Below, in pieces: positions 15,336-56,466 of a stretch of DNA of 64,000 nt (the first letter of the stretch is position 1; each line of letters begins with the position of its first letter). The DNA is from Kaiparowitsia implicata GSE-PSE-MK54-09C. GTDB taxonomy: Bacteria; Cyanobacteriota; Cyanobacteriia; Elainellales; Elainellaceae. The translations under genes and the position numbers were made by a program. Under the pieces are notes generated by a model. It made no database searches and was not told where the DNA came from. It saw nothing but the letters and a program-made list of their open reading frames with translations. The stretch spans positions 1-64,000 of the forward strand of contig JAHHHI010000080.1 of the NCBI GenBank assembly GCA_019359435.1, in the 5' to 3' direction.

Positions 15336-15657
15336 CAGCAGTGTTCTCTAGAGTATGGGTTGTCGAGTAGCCAGCATTTGGAATTCCCCAATGATGGGGA
15401 TCGAATAATGAGAAGCGAACAATTGGGACGATTTCTCCGATATGGATTTCTCCGATATGGATGGGTGGATTTGCACTTTCCAGCGTGGCAGGACGAGCGA
15501 TCGCCCACTGTATCCACCGTTATCGATCCACAATTCTTAAATTCGCAATGTTGCAGAAGGAACTGGCGCGGCCAGTTAGTGCGGCCAGTGGGTACAGTTT
15601 GATAGAAGACCCATGATTTGAGAAGCAGGCTGTTTCAGCGCAGCGCAGAAACAACGC
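15336..15657. other. Intergenic region with small repeats
   Basis: No gene is seen. GATTTCTCCGATATG is repeated in tandem near 15428-15458. An imperfect hairpin TGTTTC...GAAACA lies at 15631-15653. Confidence 0.5.
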
Positions 15658-15694
15658 AAAACCGTTCTGCTCGCATCGCGAGCAGAACGGTTTT
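15658..15694. terminator. Bidirectional intrinsic terminator
   Basis: AAAACCGTTCTGCTCGC and its exact complement enclose an ATC loop: a 17-bp stem with four A on one side and four T on the other. It lies about 95 bp downstream of the kinase/cyclase gene and should stop its transcript before the Rieske gene. A decayed relative of this stretch is at about 27668-27700. Confidence 0.85.
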
Positions 15695-15788
15695 AGGCAG
15701 GATTTGGTTTTAGGTAAAGGATGCCACACGCCCATGAGTCCCAATTGCCGCTTTGAGCGCGACCCAATGGCTCACCACCGAGTTGGCA

Positions 15789-37013: not shown

Positions 37014-37064
37014 AAAAACGATAGGGCCGATTACTCCTAAGGAGTAATCGGCCCTATCGTTTTT
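37014..37064. terminator. 51-bp palindrome, bidirectional terminator
   Basis: Arms of 25 bp match perfectly around a single A. Each arm ends in A5/T5, so it would terminate transcription from both sides. The outer part CCCTATCGTTTT repeats the end of the sigC terminator 75 bp upstream, suggesting local duplication. Confidence 0.8.
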
Positions 37065-41123: not shown

Positions 41124-42650
41124 ATGGTATACACCGATAAGCCGTCCTCCTTTTGGATTGAATCTACGCCAAAAGGGCAATTTCCGCCGTTTCTGCCCGA
41201 ATCGCTTCCTGACCTGCGGGTAGACGTCGCGATTGTGGGAGGGGGGATTGCGGGCATTACCGCAGCAATGCGGTTGAAGCAGGCAGGCAAGACTGTGGCC
41301 GTGGTTGAGGCCGATCAGATTGGCACAGGCGTCACAGGTCACACGACTGCCAAAGTGACCTCGCAACATCACTTGATCTATGCATCACTGGTTAAAGACC
41401 TGGGGGAGGAAAAGGCAAAACTGTATGCTGAATCAAACCAAGCGGCGATCGCCCAAGTCTTTCAATGGGTGCAGACGCAAAATATCGACTGCGACTTTAG
41501 TCGGCGCACTGCCTATGTGTTTGCAGAACAGCCTGAGCAACTGACCAAAGTAAAGGACGAAGTTGAAGCCGCTCAAACAGTGGGACTGCCGGCCTCCTTT
41601 ACGACCGATTTATCGCTTCCGTTTCCTGTGCTGGGCGCCGTAGCCTTTGAAGGGCAAGCGCAGTTCCATCCCCGCAAGTACCTATTGCATCTGGCAAAAA
41701 TGATTGCCGATGAGGGCAGCTACGTCTTTGAGCAGACGCGCGTGACCAGCGTAGATGAGGGCACCCCCTGCAAAATTGTGACGGAGCGCGGCAACCTCTA
41801 TGCCCAGGATGTGCTGATCACGACCAATTTACCTATCCTTGACCAGGGACTGTATTTTGCTAAGGCCTACCCGCGCCGCTCTTACATTGTGGCTGCTGAA
41901 ATCAGCCCTGAGCAGGCTCCAGACGGCATGTATATTGGCACGGGCGACAGCTACCGCTCCTTGCGCACCACGCCCGAGGGCGATCGCCTTCTGCTGCTGA
42001 TTGGGGGCGAGGGGCACAAAGTTGGTGCTGTCACCAACACAGCCGAGCGGTTTGCCAATCTCGAAGCCTATGGGCGTGAGCGCTTTGGCATCACCGACTA
42101 TGCCTACCGCTGGTCAAGTCAGGATGTGAAATCGTTTGACAATGTGCCGTATATCGGCAAACTTACCCCAGCCAATACTCACATTTTTGTGGCGACAGGC
42201 TTTGGCCTGTGGGGCATGAGCAATGGCACCCTAGCGGGAATGCTGTTATCAGATCTGGTGCAAGGCAAAGACAACCCCTGGGCAGACCTTTACGACTCGC
42301 TACGGGCAACACCGTTCCTCACTTCCACATCGCTTCAAGAAAATCTGGATGTGGGTAAGCGCTGGGTGGGCGATCGCCTCAAAGGACTCACTGACAACTC
42401 CATCAATGATGTGGTCACAGGCGAAGGCAAGCTGCTCACCATCGAAGGCAAAAAAGTAGCCGCCTATCGAGACGACGAAGGCCAAGTTCATGCCGTATCA
42501 GCTACCTGCACCCACCTAGGCTGCATCGTCAACTGGAACAACGCCGAGAAGAGCTGGGATTGCCCCTGTCACGGTGCTCGCTTCGACTGCCAAGGCAAGA
42601 TTCTGCATGGCCCTGCTGTCACACCTTTAGAGCAAATTAAAACATCGTAA
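41124..42650 (+). CDS. FAD-dependent oxidoreductase with C-terminal Rieske domain
   Basis: A 508-residue protein joining a DAO-type flavoprotein to a Rieske 2Fe-2S domain. The FAD site is VAIVGGGIAGITAAMRLKQ near residue 36; the late FAD loop is FVATGFGLWGMSNGTLAG near 360. The Rieske domain at the end has CTHLGCIVNW and CPCHGARFDCQG with all four ligands. Similar fused proteins occur in many bacteria; substrate and physiological reaction are not established. The start is the ATG preceded by GAGG; an in-frame TTG lies 12 bases upstream. Confidence 0.85.
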   Translation: MVYTDKPSSFWIESTPKGQFPPFLPESLPDLRVDVAIVGGGIAGITAAMRLKQAGKTVAVVEADQIGTGVTGHTTAKVTSQHHLIYASLVKDLGEEKAKLYAESNQAAIAQVFQWVQTQNIDCDFSRRTAYVFAEQPEQLTKVKDEVEAAQTVGLPASFTTDLSLPFPVLGAVAFEGQAQFHPRKYLLHLAKMIADEGSYVFEQTRVTSVDEGTPCKIVTERGNLYAQDVLITTNLPILDQGLYFAKAYPRRSYIVAAEISPEQAPDGMYIGTGDSYRSLRTTPEGDRLLLLIGGEGHKVGAVTNTAERFANLEAYGRERFGITDYAYRWSSQDVKSFDNVPYIGKLTPANTHIFVATGFGLWGMSNGTLAGMLLSDLVQGKDNPWADLYDSLRATPFLTSTSLQENLDVGKRWVGDRLKGLTDNSINDVVTGEGKLLTIEGKKVAAYRDDEGQVHAVSATCTHLGCIVNWNNAEKSWDCPCHGARFDCQGKILHGPAVTPLEQIKTS

Positions 42651-42720
42651 CTCTTGCAAGACGTTAGGAGTTGCTGAATTGGCCTGAATCCGACCACAGT
42701 TTAGAGCAACGCCTGGATCA

Positions 42721-42812
42721 TAGCAATTACATAATGGACGATTTTGGGGAGGCTAAGCCTCCCCAAAATCGTCCAAGATTCCAGAACGCCGCATGAAGTG
42801 CATAAGTCCTGC
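42721..42812. repeat. Family 3 repeat, copy b
   Basis: The core is a perfect 39-bp palindrome at 42736-42774 (arms GGACGATTTTGGGGAGGCT around a single A), followed by AACGCCGCATGAAGTGCAT and AAGTCCTG, as in the copy at 35153. It is directly followed by a family 2 short repeat. Confidence 0.75.
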
Positions 42813-42823
42813 AGATGTAAAAC

Positions 42824-42871
42824 AACGTCAGTTCGAGTTAAGAGGGTTTGAGCTTATCCCGAACTCGGGTT
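42824..42871. mobile_element. Family 2 repeat, short form, copy D
   Basis: 48 bp, AACGTCAGTTCGAGTTAA to TTATCCCGAACTCGGGTT, with exact 5-bp duplications AAAAC at 42819-42823 and 42872-42876. The element's last bases, with the duplication, form the TAA stop of dinB. Confidence 0.9.
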
Positions 42872-44021
42872 AAAACAGGGTCAATTGTTGATAAATGGGG
42901 TGGCTTGCGCGATCTGAGGGGGTGGAGGGGGCTGAAATAGTTAGATTGGCGATCGCCAGTCCCAATAGTCGAACGGGTTTCTGGGGTCGCAGTGGGGTAT
43001 CGCCAACGGAATCGAGCAGGGTGTCGAGCAGGGCTGTGGCCAAGGGCAAAATTTGGGCCGTTGTGGCGATCGCCTCCGGGAGGGTGCGGCTGCGGGTCAC
43101 CTGCTGATAGTCGGCATATTTCACTTTGAGAGTAAGGGTGCGACCTGAGGTATCCTTATCGGCCATCCGCTGTTGAAGTTCTGTGGCGATCTGTTCGAGC
43201 GCTTGGTGCATGGCAGGGCGATCGCACACATCATCGGCAAAGCTAGTTTCTACCCCAATGGACTTGCGCATGCGGTTGGGTTCAACCAGGCGATCGTCGA
43301 TAGCGCGGGCGATGCGGTAATAGTGCCGCCCCACTTTACCAAAGGCCGCGACCAGATCGACCTCTGCCCATTCCTTTAGGTCTGCCCCTGTTTGAATGCC
43401 CAAGCGATGCATTTTGGCGGCAGTCACTTCTCCTACACCGTGGAATTTTTCAATTGGCAGATTTGCTACAAAGGCTTCTGCCGCTTCTGGGCGAATCAGG
43501 TACAACCCATCGGGCTTATCCATGCCCGAGGCAATTTTGGCAAGGAACTTGTTGATAGACACGCCTGCCGACGCGGTGAGCTGAGTTTCGGCCAGGATGT
43601 CGGCCTTGATGGCGTGGGCGATCGCCGTTGCTGAGCGTCTAGATTGCAGCTCTACAAAAGAATCTTGAGACGGGTCATCCCCGGCTTGCTCCGTTACATC
43701 CAGATACGCCTCATCCAGCGCCAGCGGCTCGACCAAATCGGTATAGCGATAAAAAATGTCGCGAATTTGCTGCGACACCGCGCCATAGACCTCAAACCGA
43801 GGCTGCACAAAAATCAGATGGGGACACTTCTGCACCGCCGTGCGCGAGGGCATCGCAGAATGCACCCCAAACTGCCGCGCTTCGTAGCTGGCCGCCGCTA
43901 CTGCCCCGCGCTTATCCGGGCTGCCGCCCACCGCCACTGGCTTACCGCGACACTCTGGGCGATCGCGCTGTTCCACAGAGGCATAAAACGCATCCATATC
44001 AACATGGATAATTTTCCGCAT
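42870..44021 (-). CDS. dinB: DNA polymerase IV (Y-family)
   Basis: A 383-residue translesion polymerase. Catalytic acidic residues are in HVDMDAFYASVEQ at the start and LALDEAYLDVTE near 100; the helix-hairpin-helix GVGEVTAAKMHRLGI is near 195. It ends with QLTLF, a beta-clamp binding motif, directly before TAA. That stop codon spans the end of a family 2 repeat, so the insertion fixed the present C-terminus. No clear LexA box is seen upstream. Confidence 0.95.
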   Translation of the reverse strand: MRKIIHVDMDAFYASVEQRDRPECRGKPVAVGGSPDKRGAVAAASYEARQFGVHSAMPSRTAVQKCPHLIFVQPRFEVYGAVSQQIRDIFYRYTDLVEPLALDEAYLDVTEQAGDDPSQDSFVELQSRRSATAIAHAIKADILAETQLTASAGVSINKFLAKIASGMDKPDGLYLIRPEAAEAFVANLPIEKFHGVGEVTAAKMHRLGIQTGADLKEWAEVDLVAAFGKVGRHYYRIARAIDDRLVEPNRMRKSIGVETSFADDVCDRPAMHQALEQIATELQQRMADKDTSGRTLTLKVKYADYQQVTRSRTLPEAIATTAQILPLATALLDTLLDSVGDTPLRPQKPVRLLGLAIANLTISAPSTPSDRASHPIYQQLTLF

Positions 44022-44418
44022 ACGGTCTGAGCCATGACCCGTTAATTTTTAGTTAATAGTACTGTGATAAAAATCAATCCAAAGGCGTAACAAACTGCAC
44101 TAGCATTCAAACCGGATTCGTTTTAGAGTAACGGCAATAGACCAGCAATCATCATTGTTATCCAAAACTACGTTAGTGCAAAGACGAGAAATTAAGCTCT
44201 AGAGGTAAATCATTGAAAATTCTCGATGCTTAGATTTAGATTGTATTCGTCAATGATTAGACGACGTTGAAACAGAGTTTAGGCAATCCTTCATAGCACA
44301 AGCTTCTAGATGCCTTTCAATGTTAGACCTGTATCAACAAGGATCATTCTCAATCCCTTGAATTGCAGATTGTTTTTAATGCTTATGCTATTGGCATCCC
44401 TATGACTGAGTAGTCTTA
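44022..44418. other. AT-rich intergenic region upstream of phosphoketolase
   Basis: About 400 bp, more AT-rich than surrounding genes. It should contain the dinB promoter and one or more promoters reading toward phosphoketolase. No gene is recognised. Confidence 0.4.
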
Positions 44419-44556
44419 ATGCAGAATCAACACACAATCAACCAGTGGGAAAGCCTGATAATGGCATTGCCATTGCCTTCCATTCTAATCCTGTTGCTAT
44501 TTCCCCTTGTTGAAGTTGTGGTTGAAATCATGCCCAGCCTCATGCCGAATCATTGA
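44419..44556 (+). CDS. Possible small membrane protein upstream of phosphoketolase
   Basis: A 45-codon frame begins MQNQHTINQWESLIMALPL and ends with EIMPSLMPNH. The middle, LPSILILLLFPLVEVVVEI, is one continuous hydrophobic segment, long enough for a membrane helix. An internal ATG at 44461 would give 31 residues. Ribosome sites are weak in both cases. A strong intrinsic terminator begins 112 bp past its stop, suggesting a separate short transcript. It could be a small protein, a leader peptide or chance. Confidence 0.35.
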   Translation: MQNQHTINQWESLIMALPLPSILILLLFPLVEVVVEIMPSLMPNH

Positions 44557-44667
44557 TATTTATTGATGATAACCCGTTGAGATTTGCTGAAGTTCTACAG
44601 GATGCAATGATGAATCTCAAATTCACCACTCGACTTGTACCGCTCAACTTAAACGATGTCGCTCGGC

Positions 44668-44700
44668 ATTAATTTACCCTGACGGGTGAATTAATTTTTT
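44668..44700 (+). terminator. Intrinsic terminator or attenuator before phosphoketolase
   Basis: ATTAATTTACCC-TGAC-GGGTGAATTAAT, a 12-bp stem with one G-U pair and a four-base loop, is followed by a run of T to 44700. It lies 68 bp upstream of the phosphoketolase ATG on the same strand, so it must either end an upstream transcript or attenuate the phosphoketolase transcript. Confidence 0.75.
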
Positions 44701-44768
44701 GCTCATCATTTTTTCATTTTCCTCTCTCTCTTAGCCTTCTTTCTGCATATTTTTAGTATTGAGAGTCT

Positions 44769-47183
44769 ATGACCATGGTAGCAACTCCAGAAAAGCCCAC
44801 GATCACCTCAAAGCCTCTAAATGACGACGAACTCTATAAAATGGATGCCTACTGGCGTGCCTGCAATTATCTAGCCGTCGGCATGATTTATCTGCGAGAT
44901 AACCCCCTCCTGCGGAATCAGCTTCAGGCTAAGCATGTGAAGCCGCGTCTACTGGGGCATTGGGGATCAAGTCCTGGGCTTAGCTTCATCTATGTTCACC
45001 TCAATCGCATCATCAAAAAATATCAGCAGCAAATGGTGTACGTAGCAGGACCAGGGCACGGTGCACCCGGAGTGCTGGGGCCAGTCTATTTAGAAGGCAC
45101 TTATTCGGAGGTCTATCCCGATAAAAGCGAAGACGCTGACGGGATGCTCCGCTTCTTTAAACAGTTCTCGTTTCCCGGTGGCATTGGCAGCCATTGCACC
45201 CCAGAAACGCCGGGATCAATTCATGAGGGCGGGGAGCTGGGCTACAGTCTGTCTCACGCTTATGGCATTGCCTTTGACAATCCTGATGTTATTGTGGCGG
45301 CGGTGGTGGGCGATGGCGAAGCCGAAACGGGGCCACTGGCAACGTCGTGGCACGCCAACAAGTTTCTCAACCCCATTCACGATGGTGCGGTGCTGCCGAT
45401 TCTGCATCTGAATGGCTACAAGATTGCCAACCCTACTATCCTGGCGCGCATTAGCCATGAAGAGCTAGAAAGCCTGTTTCGAGGCTATGGCTATAAGCCG
45501 TACTTCGTCGAAGGTTCTGAGCCAGACTATATGCACCAGGCAATGGCAGCAACGCTGGATACGGCGATCGCCGAAATTAAAGAAATTCAGGAAGAATGCC
45601 GGAGTTCAGGACAAGCCCGACGCCCCCGCTGGCCCATGATTGTGCTGCGATCGCCCAAGGGCTGGACAGGGCCAAAAGACGTCGATGGGCGCAAGACCGA
45701 AGACTTTTGGCGATCGCACCAAGTGCCCCTTTCCGGCATTCACGACAACCCCGAGCACCTGCAACTGCTCGAAGACTGGATGCGCAGCTACCGCCCAGAC
45801 GAGCTGTTTGACGACAACGGCAGCCTCAAGCCCGAGCTCAAAGCCCTTGCCCCCAAAGGCCACCTGCGCATGGGTGCAACCCCCATCGCCAACGGCGGCT
45901 TGCTGCGGCGAGAACTGCGAATGCCCGACTTTAAGCACTACGCCGTTGAAATTCCCAAGCCAGGCTCCATAGAAGCTGGCAATACCCTGCCGCTAGGCAA
46001 TTTTTTGCGCGATGTCATGCGCTTTAACCTGCATAACTTCCGCATGTTTGGCCCTGATGAAACCGCATCGAACCGCCTACAGGCCGTCTACGAAGTTTCT
46101 AAAAAAACCTGGATGGCAGACATGCTGCCAGAAGATTTAGACGGCACCGAGCTATCGATGGACGGGCGCGTGATGGAGATGCTGAGCGAGCACACGCTGC
46201 TGGGCTGGATGGAAGGCTATCTGCTCTCGGGCCGCCACGGCTTCTTCCACACCTACGAAGCCTTTGCCCATGTGATTGACTCAATGTTTAACCAGCATGC
46301 CAAGTGGCTCGACATCTGCAAGCATGAAGTGCCCTGGCGCGCCCCTGTGTCATCGTGGAATGTGCTGCTCTCGTCAACCGTGTGGCGGCAAGATCACAAC
46401 GGCTTCTCCCACCAAGATCCCGGTTTTGTGGATGTGGTGTTGAACAAGAACCCTGACGTTGTGCGCGTCTACTTCCCACCCGATGCCAACTGCCTGCTGT
46501 CAGTCGCCGATCACTGTCTGCGCAGCACCAACTACACCAATGTCATCGTGGCAGACAAACAAAAGCACCTGCAATACCTCAGCATGGAGGAGGCGGTCAA
46601 GCACTGCACCAAGGGCATTGGCATTTGGGACTGGGCCTCTAACGACGACTGTGGCGTCGAGCCCGATGAGCCCGATGTGGTGATGGCCTGCTGTGGCGAT
46701 ATTCCTACCAAGGAAGCTCTAGCCGCTACCGCCATGCTGCGAGAAGAATTCCCCTTCCTTAAGGTGCGGTTTATCAACGTGGTGGATTTGCTCACACTGC
46801 TGCCCGATACAGAGCATCCCCACGGCCTCTCAAACCGAGAGTTTGATACGCTGTTTACCCCCGACAAACCGGTGATCTTCAACTTCCACGGCTATCCTTA
46901 CCTGATTCATAAGCTGGCCTACCGCCGCACCAATCAGGAGCGCATCCACGTGCGGGGGTACAAAGAAAAAGGCAATATCAATACGCCGCTAGAATTGGCG
47001 ATCAACAACGAGATCGACCGCTTTAGCCTGGTGATCGACGTGATTGATCGGGTGGCTAAGCTGGGGTCGGCGGGGGCGCATGTGCGCGAACGCATGAAGA
47101 ACGCTCTCATTGACAACTGCAACTTTGCCCACGAATACGGCATGGATCGCGACGAAATCGTTCACTGGACTTGGCCCTACTAG
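44769..47183 (+). CDS. xfp: Xylulose-5-phosphate/fructose-6-phosphate phosphoketolase
   Basis: An 804-residue thiamine-diphosphate enzyme that splits xylulose 5-phosphate or fructose 6-phosphate with phosphate to acetyl phosphate and an aldose phosphate. Family motifs are [52 protein letters not shown], and the diphosphate-binding [19 protein letters not shown]. Later, [20 protein letters not shown] and [14 protein letters not shown] are conserved. Length is normal. It is followed by genes for an ACT-domain protein and D-lactate dehydrogenase, which suggests a sugar-fermenting or dark-metabolism cluster. Transcription may be attenuated by the hairpin at 44668. Confidence 0.95.
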
Positions 47184-47214
47184 GGGATTCCAATGGGGTG
47201 TATGGGGGCATAAC

Positions 47215-47351
47215 CTAGGGCGTGTCATCAATTCCAACCAAACGCCTGATGCTATGAGCGTTGCGACGCCCGACCCACAAACTAGGCTAGGGGCTGGGAC
47301 TGGGACTGTTGATTTCTGGGATATCAGAGGCTAATTAATGACAGCCCCTAG
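47215..47351. mobile_element. MITE family 1, copy c
   Basis: 137 bp with CTAG on both sides; ends GGCGTGTCATCAATTCC and, reversed, GGGCTGTCATTAATTAG. Internal GGGACTGGGACTG is a small duplication that explains the extra length. It lies between phosphoketolase and the ACT-domain gene. Confidence 0.85.
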
Positions 47352-47356
47352 CCCCC

Positions 47357-47839
47357 ATGCAACACCTCACAGGGTCTGTTGCTATGAATAGAAGCGAGTC
47401 TGTGACGGTCTCTTCTCGACAGTTGGATTGCGCCATGACGGGTGAAACGAATCTCACTACTCTGCTGCGGTCTATGCGGCCTGTTCTCCAACCGGGAGAC
47501 GCTGTGTTTTGTACCGTGGCAACTCTAGATTCGTCACGTCTTGCGCTCGACCCTGTTGGGCTGTTTAGAGAAGCCGAAGGCTGGACGCTGATTCTCGACC
47601 CGGTTCAGGCAGAGGCCGCGCGGTTGCCCTATGATGCCATCTTTCGCCAAATTACGCTGTCCGTTCATTCCAGTCTGGAGGCGGTAGGGTTCTTGGCGGC
47701 TGTGACTCACCATTTGGCTGCCCATGGAATTAGCGTCAATCCTGTGTCTGCGTACTACCATGACCACTTGTTTGTTCCTGCTGATTGCGCTCATAGGGTG
47801 ATGAATCTATTGCAGGATCTTTCTCGGTGTTCTCAGTAA
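47357..47839 (+). CDS. ACT-domain protein
   Basis: Up to 160 residues; the family core starts at MTGETNLTTLLRSMRPVLQPGDAVFCTVA (ATG near 47435). Two ACT-like halves follow: GLFREAEGWTLILDPVQAE and ITLSVHSSLEAVGFLAAVTHHLAAHGI. Such stand-alone ACT proteins may bind amino acids. The long start at 47357 lies 6 bp from the MITE end and is less likely; 47384 (MNRSES) is another choice. Cotranscription with phosphoketolase or ldhA is possible. Confidence 0.75.
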   Translation: MQHLTGSVAMNRSESVTVSSRQLDCAMTGETNLTTLLRSMRPVLQPGDAVFCTVATLDSSRLALDPVGLFREAEGWTLILDPVQAEAARLPYDAIFRQITLSVHSSLEAVGFLAAVTHHLAAHGISVNPVSAYYHDHLFVPADCAHRVMNLLQDLSRCSQ

Positions 47840-47954
47840 TCGGCGTTTTCAGTAACTAGATGCGGGCAGGGAAACTGCGGCGCTGTGAGACGATTGCCGC
47901 AGTCATTCGGAATGTTGTTGAGTGAGTTGTTGAGTGAATGGATGGAGCGATCGC

Positions 47955-48947
47955 ATGAAAGTTGCTGTTTTTAGCACAAAGAAATACGATTGCCAGTCTT
48001 TCAAGGAGGCGAACGAAACCTATGATCATGAGCTGTCATTTTTGGAAGCGCGACTGACGCAGCAAACCGCAGAACTGGCGGCAGGTTTTCCGGCGATTTG
48101 CCTGTTTATTAACGACCTAGCAGACCGAACTGTGTTAAAACAACTGGCGCGGGGAGGAACCCGGGCGATCGCCCTGCGATGTGCGGGCTACAACAATGTT
48201 GATGTAGACGCCGCCACAGAATTGGGAATCACGGTCGTGCGAGTGCCTGCGTATTCTCCCTACGCGGTGGCAGAGCATGCGGTGGGCCTCGTGCTCATGC
48301 TGAACCGCAAGCTGTACCGCGCTTATAACCGCGTGCGCGAAGACAACTTTGCCCTGGATGGGCTGCTGGGGTTTGACATTCACGGCACCACCGTAGGCGT
48401 TGTGGGGACGGGCAAAATTGGGCAGTGCTTTGCTCAAATCATGAGCGGATTTGGCTGCACGCTGCTGGGCTATGATCTGTATCCCAATGAAGACTGCAAA
48501 GCTATCGGAATTCACTATGTAGGGCTAGCGGAACTCTTTGCACAAGCCGATATTATTTCACTGCACTGCCCGTTATTGCCTGCCACCCATCACCTGGTGA
48601 ATGAACAGGCGATCGCCCAGATGAAACCCGGCGTGATGCTAATTAACACCAGTCGCGGCGGTCTGGTGGATACAAGGGCAGTGATTGAAGGAATCAAATC
48701 GGGACAGATTGGGTACTTTGGCACGGATGTCTATGAGGATGAAGCCGATTTATTCTTTGAGGATTTATCCGATCAAGTCATCAGAGACGATACATTTCAA
48801 CTGTTGCAGTCTTTTTCAAACGTAGTGATCACGGCACATCAGGCGTTTTTTACTCGCAATGCGCTAGGGGCGATCGCCCACACCACCCTAGGCAATCTCA
48901 CTGAGGTAGAACAGGGGCGGCCTCTCAAAAACCAAGTGACAGCCTAA
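47955..48947 (+). CDS. ldhA: D-lactate dehydrogenase (fermentative)
   Basis: A 330-residue D-2-hydroxyacid dehydrogenase reducing pyruvate to D-lactate with NADH. It starts [16 protein letters not shown], as in LdhA proteins; the NAD site is [18 protein letters not shown] near 150; the catalytic Arg is in NTSRGGLVD near 233; and the His in [11 protein letters not shown] near 296. The start was moved to 47955 because the 7 codons upstream are not conserved. Next to phosphoketolase it would regenerate NAD during dark fermentation. Confidence 0.9.
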
Positions 48948-56342: not shown

Positions 56343-56466
56343 AACGTCAGTTCGGGTTAAGGGGGTTTTGGGGCACCGCGCGACGCGCGGTGCCCCAAAA
56401 CCCTCAATGTGTCGTGCGCGTCGCGCACGACACATTGAGGGTTTGAGCTTATCCCGAACTCAGGTT
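56343..56466. mobile_element. Family 2 repeat, long form, copy E
   Basis: 124 bp with exact GCATT duplications at 56338-56342 and 56467-56471. The two hairpins are perfect: GGGGCACCGCGCG..CGCGCGGTGCCCC and CCTCAATGTGTCGTGCGCG..CACATTGAGG. This is the best-preserved long copy. Confidence 0.9.

Follow-up and report, generated by a model that had tools for sequence, protein, structure and literature searches.

The gap between a dinB-like gene and the divergently transcribed phosphoketolase gene xfp of Kaiparowitsia implicata GSE-PSE-MK54-09C contains a hairpin directly followed by a T-run on the xfp strand. We tentatively read this element, at a probability of about 45%, as a lineage-specific and moderately strong intrinsic terminator that would end a short plus-strand RNA and shield xfp. 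The window (the whole 64,000-nucleotide stretch of DNA that was analysed) has the following features in this neighbourhood.

42870-44021, minus strand: dinB-like gene for a Y-family DNA polymerase, divergent from xfp (Pfam IMS, IMS_C and IMS_HHH)
44022-44774: divergent dinB-xfp intergenic region, 753 nt, 38% G+C against 54% for the contig
44668-44695, plus strand: 12-pair hairpin ATTAATTTACCC-TGAC-GGGTGAATTAAT, from sequence, fold and shuffles
44696-44700, plus strand: T-run TTTTT, then G, immediately 3' of the stem
44696-44760, plus strand: pyrimidine-rich tract of 65 nt by composition, 58% T and 81% pyrimidine, with the T-run as its first part
44759-44765, plus strand: TTGAGAG, probable ribosome-binding region of xfp
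44775-47183, plus strand: xfp (phosphoketolase; Pfam XFP_N, XFP and XFP_C), probably starting at the second ATG

As the sequence-only reading had remarked, this terminator-like element has no same-strand gene just upstream. On that side of the gap the nearest plus-strand gene lies beyond dinB; it encodes a Rieske-domain FAD oxidoreductase and ends at 42650. No tRNA or tmRNA was detected in 42000-48000. On the far side, xfp is followed on the same strand by genes for an ACT-domain protein and a D-2-hydroxyacid dehydrogenase. The xfp frame has two in-frame ATGs, at 44769 and 44775. Because xfp in relatives begins at ATGGTAGCAAC or close variants, which corresponds to 44775 here, and because the TTGAGAG motif keeps its position 8-11 nt ahead of the start both here and in L003, L087, L088, L096, L097 and L102, the second ATG is probably the true start. 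The hairpin would therefore end 79 nt upstream of xfp; the 68 nt first reported is correct for the ATG at 44769 but not for the conserved start. An xfp annotation opening at 44769 would be two codons too long. TTGAGAG recurs before xfp in the family relatives where a plain GGAG would stand.

The arms of the hairpin, ATTAATTTACCC (44668-44679) and GGGTGAATTAAT (44684-44695), pair through three G-C, eight A-U and one G-U pairs around the TGAC loop, and the 12-bp stem, loop and T-run lie in the xfp direction at 44668-44700(+) exactly as originally described. The folding energy of the 46-nt hairpin segment is -15.3 kcal/mol (z -4.3), a stability that none of its shuffles attains; it is below the threshold of about -10 kcal/mol used for intrinsic terminators, and the U-tract directly after the stem, TTTTTGCT, has at least 4 U in 8 nt. 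In a fold of 233 nt of context, 10 of the 12 pairs have a pairing probability above 0.95. The plus-strand RNA folds better than the minus-strand RNA (-15.3 against -12.4 kcal/mol), the source of the difference being the G-U pair. A terminator on the minus strand was ruled out, as the T-run is absent on that side. In our own TransTermHP-like scoring the stem receives -12.8 and the tail -3.98. When the 753-nt gap was shuffled 3000 times with its dinucleotide content preserved, a plus-strand combination of stem ≤ -12.8 with tail ≤ -3.9 arose only once. Stem and tail are thus jointly beyond chance for the local composition, a result that weakens if the presence of the pyrimidine tract is presupposed. 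This 81% pyrimidine tract lies between the hairpin and the xfp ribosome site.

To place the element within its genome we used terminator statistics that cover 850 kb of the 6.7 Mb. Requiring a stem of ≤ -11.5 and a tail of ≤ -3.5 gave 33 elements in the 850 kb, and since 18 of them occupy gaps after a same-strand gene, the combined signature tracks terminators in this genome. With the stem cut at -11, the hairpin upstream of xfp comes 23rd of 36 by summed score, while the top hairpins in the same 850 kb have stems of -20 to -27. Its strength is therefore middling and, with three G-C pairs only, the earlier description of the terminator as strong was an overstatement. The hairpin is single-copy in the 6.7-Mb genome; the idea of a repeat or mobile palindrome was rejected on this ground and because phage and plasmid collections returned 0 matches.

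The sequence-only reading had also drawn attention to a small open frame with one membrane-length hydrophobic segment. Two plus-strand frames in the gap require consideration, both of which are probably chance products.

44419-44556, plus strand: 45-codon frame with one hydrophobic stretch, assessed by shuffles, codon usage and homology searches
44607-44672, plus strand: 21-codon ATG frame with AGGA at 44599-44602 and its stop within the 5' arm of the hairpin

The 45-codon frame does exist, but it stops 111 nt ahead of the stem rather than just before it, and a plus-strand frame of that length is present in 76% of gap shuffles. A frame of this kind with a membrane-like segment occurs in 19% of gap shuffles at KD19 ≥ 1.6, a cut that is looser than the frame's own value of 2.58. 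Its codon log-likelihood is neutral (-0.08 per codon, against +0.32 for xfp and +0.39 for dinB). There is no Pfam match, no homologue at E < 0.2 in 35 family genomes (the best match has E 0.24) and nothing related in the xfp upstream regions of relatives. On the strength of the shuffle frequency, the neutral codons and the lack of a Pfam match or homologue, we rejected the frame as a gene for a small membrane protein.

Conservation, which the sequence-only reading had proposed as a check, favours neither the hairpin nor the 45-codon frame, as neither is retained ahead of xfp in related genomes. The family sample comprised 36 genomes, all with an xfp-like sequence and none of the same genus, and the nearest xfp orthologues differ by ~16-17% in protein; in these genomes the gap is without counterpart, except for the xfp start region in one of them. 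Among 105 xfp upstream regions of 300 nt each (the window's own included), five carry a plus-strand terminator-like hairpin, compared with 2.35 (sd 1.3) in shuffles, which means that xfp has no general attenuator. Searches of 60 relatives and 292 genomes of the phylum recovered no homologue of the gap RNA apart from one 35-nt low-complexity match, which adjoins an unrelated gene and not xfp, and Rfam at both gathering and relaxed thresholds returned nothing credible. The 126 nt ahead of the hairpin are not unusual in structure (z -0.98), and a structured RNA there was rejected since significance was lost once the hairpin was removed. The absence of the hairpin from relatives limits its general meaning.

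How such an element might operate can be sketched as follows. RNA polymerase would start within 44022-44668, or enter the gap from pervasive transcription; it would transcribe the hairpin, pause at the T-run and release a short RNA that does not code for protein. A separate start downstream of the hairpin would give the xfp transcript, on a short leader bearing the TTGAGAG ribosome site, and as an outcome the small transcript would be ended and xfp shielded from read-through. Termination, an upstream transcript and a downstream xfp start are all predicted steps. Of the two options that the sequence-only reading offered, the end of a hidden transcript and an attenuator of xfp, we prefer the first solely because of base rates in other cyanobacteria. 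The 5' UTRs of S. elongatus have a median length of 30 nt, and just 12% of them are longer than 100 nt (PMC3219970), so an xfp leader reaching the hairpin, at least 107 nt long, would be out of the ordinary. Of the 3364 terminators predicted in Nostoc PCC 7120, 356 lie 45-350 nt downstream of an intergenic start site (PMC4734099), and lone terminators after small RNAs are therefore common. Since the T-run is one-sided, relatively few S. elongatus leaders exceed 100 nt and lone terminators are common in Nostoc, we favour a terminator of a short RNA. Against it stand the lack of an outstanding promoter (one weak sigma-70-like match upstream, at 44213-44242, against 3.5 expected by chance), the lack of conservation of the RNA and the ordinary structure of the sequence preceding the hairpin. 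Moreover, canonical intrinsic terminators account for the ends of only 22% of the transcription units of S. elongatus (PMC13289151), and structures resembling terminators are also present within transcripts and in untranscribed regions (PMC3219970), so the sequence signature alone is no proof of function.

The same hairpin could instead act within the xfp transcript. If the xfp promoter lay upstream of 44668, some polymerases would stop at the hairpin and xfp expression would be lowered or regulated; we regard this as unlikely. The hairpin faces in the xfp direction just ahead of the start, and no good -10/-35 pair lies downstream of it, where bare TANNNT sequences at 44732, 44748 and 44754 are the only matches. 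Such an attenuator would, however, require a leader longer than 107 nt, relatives do not share its hairpin ahead of xfp (five of 105 regions, as above), and in the leader fold the terminator pairs with a probability near 1.0 and faces no competing antiterminator. The 21-codon frame lends this idea a particular form, because a ribosome translating it from the AGGA would run into the 5' arm and block the hairpin; translation of the leader at 44607-44672 would then let transcription pass into xfp, linking carbon flux to translation capacity or to light and dark. We hold this translation-coupled version to be very improbable: frames of the type (AGGA, stop in the 5' arm) arise in about 4% of shuffles and the codon usage of this one is slightly non-coding.

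That the hairpin has no function at all, and is a product of an AT-rich, T-rich gap that happens to adjoin a pyrimidine tract, also seems unlikely to us. An equally good stem is found in 17 of 500 gap shuffles (3.4%) when the tail is ignored, the T-run belongs to a tract of 58% T where as good a tail score is reached at 2 of 49 positions, and the hairpin is not conserved; it is the rarity of stem and tail together in the shuffles that speaks against pure accident. The near-perfect symmetry of ATTAATTTACCC-N4-GGGTGAATTAAT would suit a putative regulator binding site in the DNA, and its distance from xfp is compatible with a leader of usual length (median as cited above from PMC3219970): were xfp transcription to start near 44744, served by the bare -10-like TAGCCT at 44732, the centre of the repeat would fall near -62, a position suited to an activator. 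We nevertheless think an operator quite improbable. A search of the 6.7-Mb genome that allowed up to 3 mismatches gave no second copy of the inverted repeat, none was seen upstream of xfp in relatives, the sole difference between the arms forms a G-U pair, which suits RNA, and the T-run immediately adjoins just one of the arms.

A terminator of a short RNA, the reading that we prefer, has close parallels. Like the cyanobacterial intrinsic terminators recognised by TransTermHP-type rules or mapped in S. elongatus PCC 7942 (PMC3219970, PMC13289151), the element is a one-sided hairpin below -10 kcal/mol with at least 4 T in the next 8 nt; unlike them, it lacks a same-strand gene just upstream, its stem is A-U-rich, its score is middling and it is known from sequence. 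As a lone intergenic terminator it resembles those of the Nostoc PCC 7120 intergenic small RNAs, which have a start site and a predicted terminator (PMC4734099), yet Yfr1 and ncl0160 are conserved whereas the gap RNA has no homologue in other cyanobacteria. In the titles and abstracts covered by our literature search, no attenuator or small RNA is reported for cyanobacterial xfp. Translation-coupled transcription attenuators are of the pyrBI or amino-acid operon type. These share with the present case a terminator-like hairpin before a metabolic gene and a short frame that runs into the 5' arm and stops there, but here the fold offers no antiterminator, there is no regulatory codon run and there is no conservation. 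The element is thus of an ordinary kind, of uncertain use and confined to one lineage. To our knowledge the cyanobacterial phylum is without Rho and most of its transcript ends are unexplained; if the hairpin terminates, it would mark a further short transcript that is unannotated, or a further insulated promoter, in cyanobacteria. Phosphoketolase is an ATP-sensitive enzyme, and if the hairpin attenuates xfp, an RNA layer would be added to the control of this carbon-diverting enzyme.

Two further observations concern other hairpins. In another cyanobacterium, L015, a 22-bp perfect palindrome, TCTCCGAGGCATGCCTCGGAGA, lies ~60-85 nt before xfp and has no T-run. The window itself contains very stable long intergenic hairpins at 37017-37061, 15655-15697 and 56401-56441 with scores of -24 to -34; the first two score as terminators on both strands, and the one at 37017-37061 is situated downstream of a primary-sigma-like gene.
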